Part shown: one piece after another, positions 3,949-4,023 of the stretch
Position numbering within the stretch: the first letter of the stretch is position 1
How the letters are laid out: the number at the start of each line of letters is the position of its first letter
Source: a virus
Length of the DNA stretch: 30,564 nucleotides
Strand: one strand, 5' to 3'
IMG/VR virus record: IMGVR_UViG_3300037726_000040
Span: 1-30,564 of that record
Position numbers and translations under genes: made by a program
The notes under the pieces: generated by a model
Database searches by the model: none
What the model was told of the DNA's origin: nothing
Seen by the model: only the letters and a program-made list of their open reading frames with translations

Positions 3949-4023
3949 AGCGGCGTGGAGCAGCGGTAGCTCGTCGGGCTCATAACCCGAAGGTCGCGGG
4001 TTCGATCCCCGCCGCCGCAACCA
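3949..4023 (+). tRNA. Initiator tRNA-fMet (CAT), with encoded CCA
   Basis: A complete 75-nt cloverleaf. The acceptor pairs 3950-3955 with 4013-4018, leaving an unpaired A1-A72. The D stem is GAGC/GCTC. The anticodon arm is TCGGG-CTCATAA-CCCGA with anticodon CAT at 3981-3983. The variable loop is AGGTC, the T arm GCGGG-TTCGATC-CCCGC, and the discriminator A precedes an encoded CCA. Three consecutive G:C pairs in the anticodon stem, the A11:U24 pair in the D stem and the mismatched 1-72 pair are the known identity elements of bacterial initiator tRNA, so this is not an elongator tRNA-Met. The mismatch is A-A rather than the usual C-A. It starts 20 bases after the lipoprotein stop. Confidence 0.93.

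Follow-up and report, generated by a model that had tools for sequence, protein, structure and literature searches.

A probably functional initiator tRNA gene of Chloroflexota type carried by a contractile-tailed phage

Gene content around the tRNA

The analyzed window, i.e., the whole stretch of DNA under study, corresponds to a 30,564-base virus record that has no end repeats. Terminase and portal genes were not recognized among the window proteins scanned, and, given both observations, the record is probably a fragment. The tRNA gene and the assigned features of its neighborhood are all on the plus strand and are listed below with the evidence for each.

238..1017, plus strand: ParA-type partition ATPase (PHROG 164, 1e-64)
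1867..2817, plus strand: tyrosine recombinase, XerC-like integrase (PHROG 1, 1.6e-30; Pfam; NCBIfam XerC below cut-off)
3931..3939, plus strand: extended -10-like element TGCTACAAT (sequence and regular expression; consensus match only)
3949..4023, plus strand: initiator-type tRNA-Met(CAU), 75 nt, encoded CCA, A1·A72 (ARAGORN; RF00005; pair counts)
4106..4178, plus strand: putative decayed tRNA-like element (weak tRNA-clan match, below cut-off; without an ARAGORN call)
about 4329..4364, plus strand: intrinsic-terminator-like hairpin and T run (consensus match; RNA fold z -3.5)
4488..5189, plus strand: head maturation protease, the first structural gene past the tRNA (PHROG 1028, 1.7e-34)
6197..7708, plus strand: major head protein (PHROG 752, 5.9e-55)
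8956..10653, plus strand: tail sheath protein (PHROG 279, 8.5e-62)

An ORF of unassigned function separates the ParA gene from the recombinase gene, and the 25 kb to the right of the tRNA are occupied by virion genes (head protease, major head protein, sheath, baseplate, and others). Distant kin of the sheath and head proteins were found in contractile-tailed phages of Bacillus, Thermus, Bordetella, and other bacteria. Among viral contigs, the sheath, head, and protease proteins had relatives only in a second, identical contig (L002) and in one distant record (L003). The search for the same gene at this place in related phages thus returned the identical locus of L002, in which the tRNA is included and the surrounding sequence reads alike.

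The original prediction had assigned the tRNA to a mobile element, and this assignment is upheld by the ParA and XerC-like recombinase genes on the left, the virion genes on the right, and the L002 locus. It had also allowed for one of the flanks being host chromosome; phage genes were found on both sides. The gene is thus regarded as a part of the phage and not as a host gene at its edge, and the carrier, judged by its gene content, is a contractile-tailed phage with partition and recombinase genes. A 49-nt direct repeat (2807-2855 and 3227-3275, 90% identical) was also observed in the left part, where the end of the recombinase gene region is found again as the ORF at 3192 begins and may have been duplicated by recombination.

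Identity of the initiator tRNA gene

The sole tRNA gene called by ARAGORN in the window is tRNA-Met(cat), located at exactly 3949-4023 on the plus strand, where the original prediction had placed an initiator tRNA-fMet. Its score with the Rfam model RF00005 is 64 bits (cut-off 29; whole-window E 6.9e-12), and all of its 20 stem pairs are standard. Position 1-72 is an unpaired A1·A72 and is followed in the acceptor stem by six standard pairs, from G2-C71 through G7-C66, including C3-G70 and G4-C69. The anticodon stem contains the consecutive pairs G29-C41, G30-C40, and G31-C39 (alignment columns 28-30/38-40) and presents a CAU anticodon; A11:U24 and A73 are present, and the CCA end is encoded.

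The three G:C pairs and A11:U24 are the elements that characterize bacterial initiators (PMC4611024), whereas formylation depends on the unpaired 1-72 position, A73, G2-C71, C3-G70, and G4-C69 (PMC9976931). Both sets, including the minor formylation elements, are kept in the window tRNA. Free-energy folding of the tRNA alone is unexceptional (z -0.9), so that the evidence for an initiator comes from the family model and the identity elements. By these, the predicted identity is confirmed at the level of sequence: positions 3949-4023 hold an intact initiator-type (tRNAfMet) gene that carries the whole bacterial initiator set.

Pair conservation, transcription signals, and a decayed neighbor

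The window tRNA was aligned with nine distinct chromosomal initiators, mostly from Chloroflexota, and 500 shuffles served as a control. Standard pairs fill 99.5% of the pair cells of this alignment; in five pairs both partners differ, one of these pairs occurring as four pair types, and none of the 500 shuffles reached the two figures. The co-variation of T-stem and acceptor pairs is as expected under selection for function, and the window tRNA is probably functional.

The extended -10-like element TGCTACAAT ends 9 nt 5' of the tRNA start and is accompanied by no clear -35 element. The hairpin at about 4329-4364 is likely to mark the end of the tRNA transcription unit. Further downstream, at 4394-4462 on the plus strand, a strong sigma-70-like match (TTGACA-17-TATAGT, 11/12) and then a terminator-like hairpin with a T run are located directly before the head protease gene, an arrangement that resembles an attenuator or antitermination leader.

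The tRNA-like element at 4106-4178 starts 83 nt downstream of the initiator tRNA. It retains a paired acceptor and T arm and an encoded CCA; its D arm is broken, and its anticodon-like loop is CAU-like with C33. The best Rfam match is tRNA-Sec (21.8 bits, below cut-off), and no source for the element was found in 61 Chloroflexota genomes. Its state indicates that tRNA decay does occur in this spot.

The A1·A72 position and the probable host

The original prediction had proposed that the A-A first pair might define a distinct initiator variant. A pattern search found A1·A72 initiators in at least 120 bacterial genome stretches, the matches listed being from Acidobacteriota, Veillonella, Aquificota, Nitrospirota, Pseudomonas, Chloroflexota, and others. 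Nine among the A1·A72 matches listed share the 75-nt form of the phage tRNA, and six of these nine are titled Chloroflexi or Chloroflexota. Two loci from one Chloroflexota order (L273 and L274) combine A1·A72 with an acceptor stem identical to that of the phage tRNA, and sister genomes carry C, G, or T at position 1. Position 1 can thus vary freely and A·A is ordinary, and the proposal that this pair marks a special initiator was rejected.

The 75-nt window tRNA is most similar to Chloroflexota initiators: a match was found in 371 of 400 Chloroflexota genomes, with identity up to 92%. The nearest chromosomal initiators of this phylum (L273, L274, and L163) share with the phage tRNA the length of 75 nt, the short D loop, and the anticodon arm; unlike it, they are not phage-carried, and they differ from it at about seven positions in the D loop and T arm. 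None of the chromosomal tRNAs found in the comparison is identical to that of the phage. When the major head protein was searched against 400 genomes of Chloroflexota, only weak partial matches were obtained and no prophage that would have revealed the attachment site, and homologues of the integrase occur in genomes of the phylum with up to 50% identity. From the tRNA kinship and the integrase homologues we infer that the phage probably infects a Chloroflexota bacterium. The locus is thereby a documented case of a Chloroflexota-type initiator tRNA on a phage and indicates a host phylum for an orphan virus record.

Initiator-type tRNAs in other phages

Initiator species had been described in the original prediction as rare among the tRNAs of mobile elements. 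This view does not hold, since the same D-arm/anticodon core occurs in at least 120 viral-contig stretches as well as in named phages, among them I3, the Gordonia phage GodonK, CcrBL9, the Cellulophaga phage phi17:2, PaMx74, LuckySocke, and others. The 1-72 position among the viral core matches listed is C-A in 39, T-T in 36, T-A in 12, C-T in 10, and A-A in 6, with others besides; these counts contain duplicates, e.g., copies from the window itself, as well as recurrent prophages and prophage-edge genes that belong to the host.

The tRNA-Met of Mycobacterium phage I3 (Bixzunavirus) resembles the window tRNA in being phage-borne and in its unpaired 1-72 position (A·C), A11:U24, and GGG/CCC stem, but it sits among other tRNA genes, has a longer D loop, and belongs to a phage of an Actinobacterial host. 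Caulobacter phage CcrBL9 carries a tRNA annotated as tRNA-fMet, likewise with A11:U24 and a 1-72 mismatch (T·T); unlike the window, this is a jumbo phage from a different phylum, and one anticodon-stem pair is changed. In Pseudomonas phage PaMx74, which is unrelated to the window phage, the phage-borne tRNA-Met also adjoins a head/packaging gene (terminase) and has C1·A72 instead of A·A. Many phages thus carry an initiator-type tRNA, and the window tRNA is a further, well-documented example; a literature search retrieved no paper that treats initiator tRNAs encoded by phages as a class.

Several further loci were observed in the same survey. Bordetella phage PHB04 (L306, 2984-4298), which has a distant sheath protein in common with the window, contains an unannotated tRNA-Met with C1·A72 and GGG/CCC but C11:G24, followed by tRNA-Asn, tRNA-Pro, and a predicted tmRNA, with an RtcB ligase gene near. 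In two virus contigs, an initiator tRNA gene adjoins a PHROG 850 "RNA-binding protein" gene (L051, 4858-6639) and a QueC-like queuosine gene (L026, 4240-5052), respectively.

Placement near structural genes

In the virus record G405 (L014/L358; L358 2204-3728), a solitary 75-nt initiator tRNA lies just ahead of a head maturation protease gene, between this gene and the head-morphogenesis and neck genes. The 75-nt initiator type immediately 5' of the head maturation protease gene is common to G405 and the window, whereas G405 has A1·G72, is a different phage by its head proteins, and encodes its integrase 25 kb from the tRNA. The L014 locus of G405 also contains a DUF5662 gene whose product is 43% identical to that of window positions 16068-16523. 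The initiator tRNA precedes the major head protein gene in G407 and lies between the terminase and portal genes in L087.

Structural neighbors were recorded for 8 of 23 solitary initiators and for 2 of 13 solitary tRNA-Arg(TCT) genes used as a control, a difference that is not significant (p 0.27); the genes were picked heuristically, and the choice of neighbors was looser in the first initiator set than in the control. Among the viral matches listed, 82 of 119 initiators and 44 of 120 tRNA-Arg(TCT) genes are solitary (p 7e-7); these counts include prophage-edge host genes, repeated prophage families, and short stretches and are no evidence by themselves.

One conceivable interpretation, to which we would give little weight, is that phages repeatedly and independently keep a single initiator tRNA near late structural genes as a device raising or biasing initiation during virion production. 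The window, G405, G407, and L087 would be examples of such placement, as a lead and not as a result. The survey nonetheless raises a question that can be addressed by counting, namely why single-tRNA phages so often keep an initiator, which is useless for codon usage.

Proposed role and alternative explanations

We consider it rather likely that the phage, a contractile-tailed one with partition and recombinase genes, acquired an initiator tRNA gene of Chloroflexota type from a host and has retained it in functional form. Transcription would start from the gene's own extended -10 element and stop at the terminator (about 4329-4364); after charging by the host MetRS via CAU and formylation by the host Fmt, the tRNA would act with IF2 in the P site of the ribosome. 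In this way, the supply of fMet-tRNA could be raised or maintained during phage protein production, the phage initiator topping up or replacing that of the host during infection. If the gene is a true initiator, codon compensation for internal AUG codons does not apply.

The integrase gene 1.1 kb upstream of the tRNA on the same strand, together with the integrases that adjoin initiator tRNAs in other viral contigs (L071, L029, L030, and L121), would fit a gene that is or was an attachment site, where the recombinase would use the host initiator gene as the insertion target, with the phage-borne tRNA restoring that gene. Copies of tRNA genes at attP are usually 3' parts, whereas the phage tRNA is full-length and has its own -10-like element; three more ORFs lie between the recombinase gene and the tRNA, and no portion of a tRNA is reported to recur within the window, which may be a fragment. 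Homologous integrases were examined at 16 Chloroflexota loci: within about 5 kb, as far as the contig extended, none of these loci has a tRNA-Met, and just one has a tRNA of any kind. The ParA gene suggests plasmid-like maintenance instead; the solitary initiator of G405 is far from the integrase, as given above, and no integrase was found in G406, G407, or G408. The full-length gene, ParA, and the absence of tRNA-Met from all 16 loci make the attachment-site role less likely, and we regard it as an unlikely explanation that still deserves some weight. A neutral passenger, gained by recombination and without a role for the phage, is in keeping with the decayed element downstream, according to which tRNA genes have been both gained and lost here. 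Such a passenger is doubtful to a greater degree, given that all stems are intact with compensatory differences from the chromosomal relatives, that all initiator elements are kept, and that initiator tRNAs recur in unrelated phages.

The phage copy might also replace a host initiator tRNA destroyed by a tRNA-cleaving defense or toxin of the host, e.g., of VapC type, since tRNAfMet is cleaved by VapC toxins and phage tRNAs have been proposed as a counter to anticodon nucleases (PMC10264068). The same source reports that, where tRNA-fMet is a VapC target, phages in general avoid carrying a gene for it. In addition, the phage tRNA and the nearest initiators on Chloroflexota chromosomes have an identical anticodon arm (alignment columns 20-48), and a nuclease cutting the host copy should therefore cut the phage copy too. 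Escape by mutation of the anticodon loop is for the same reason unsupported, with the host phylum taken as inferred above. To the simple replacement of a host initiator tRNA destroyed by a defense system or toxin we assign a low probability, somewhat below that of an attachment site. Some viral contigs with the same core have the tRNA at the contig end, as would a prophage bordered by the host's own chromosomal initiator gene. For the window this reading is highly improbable: the protein encoded in the left flank (3494-3925) had no match in 50 closest-order genomes, which is a weak test, the tRNA is bordered by ParA and the recombinase to its left and by 25 kb of virion genes to its right, and the flanks are identical in L002. 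It was rejected on account of the phage genes on both flanks and their identity in L002.
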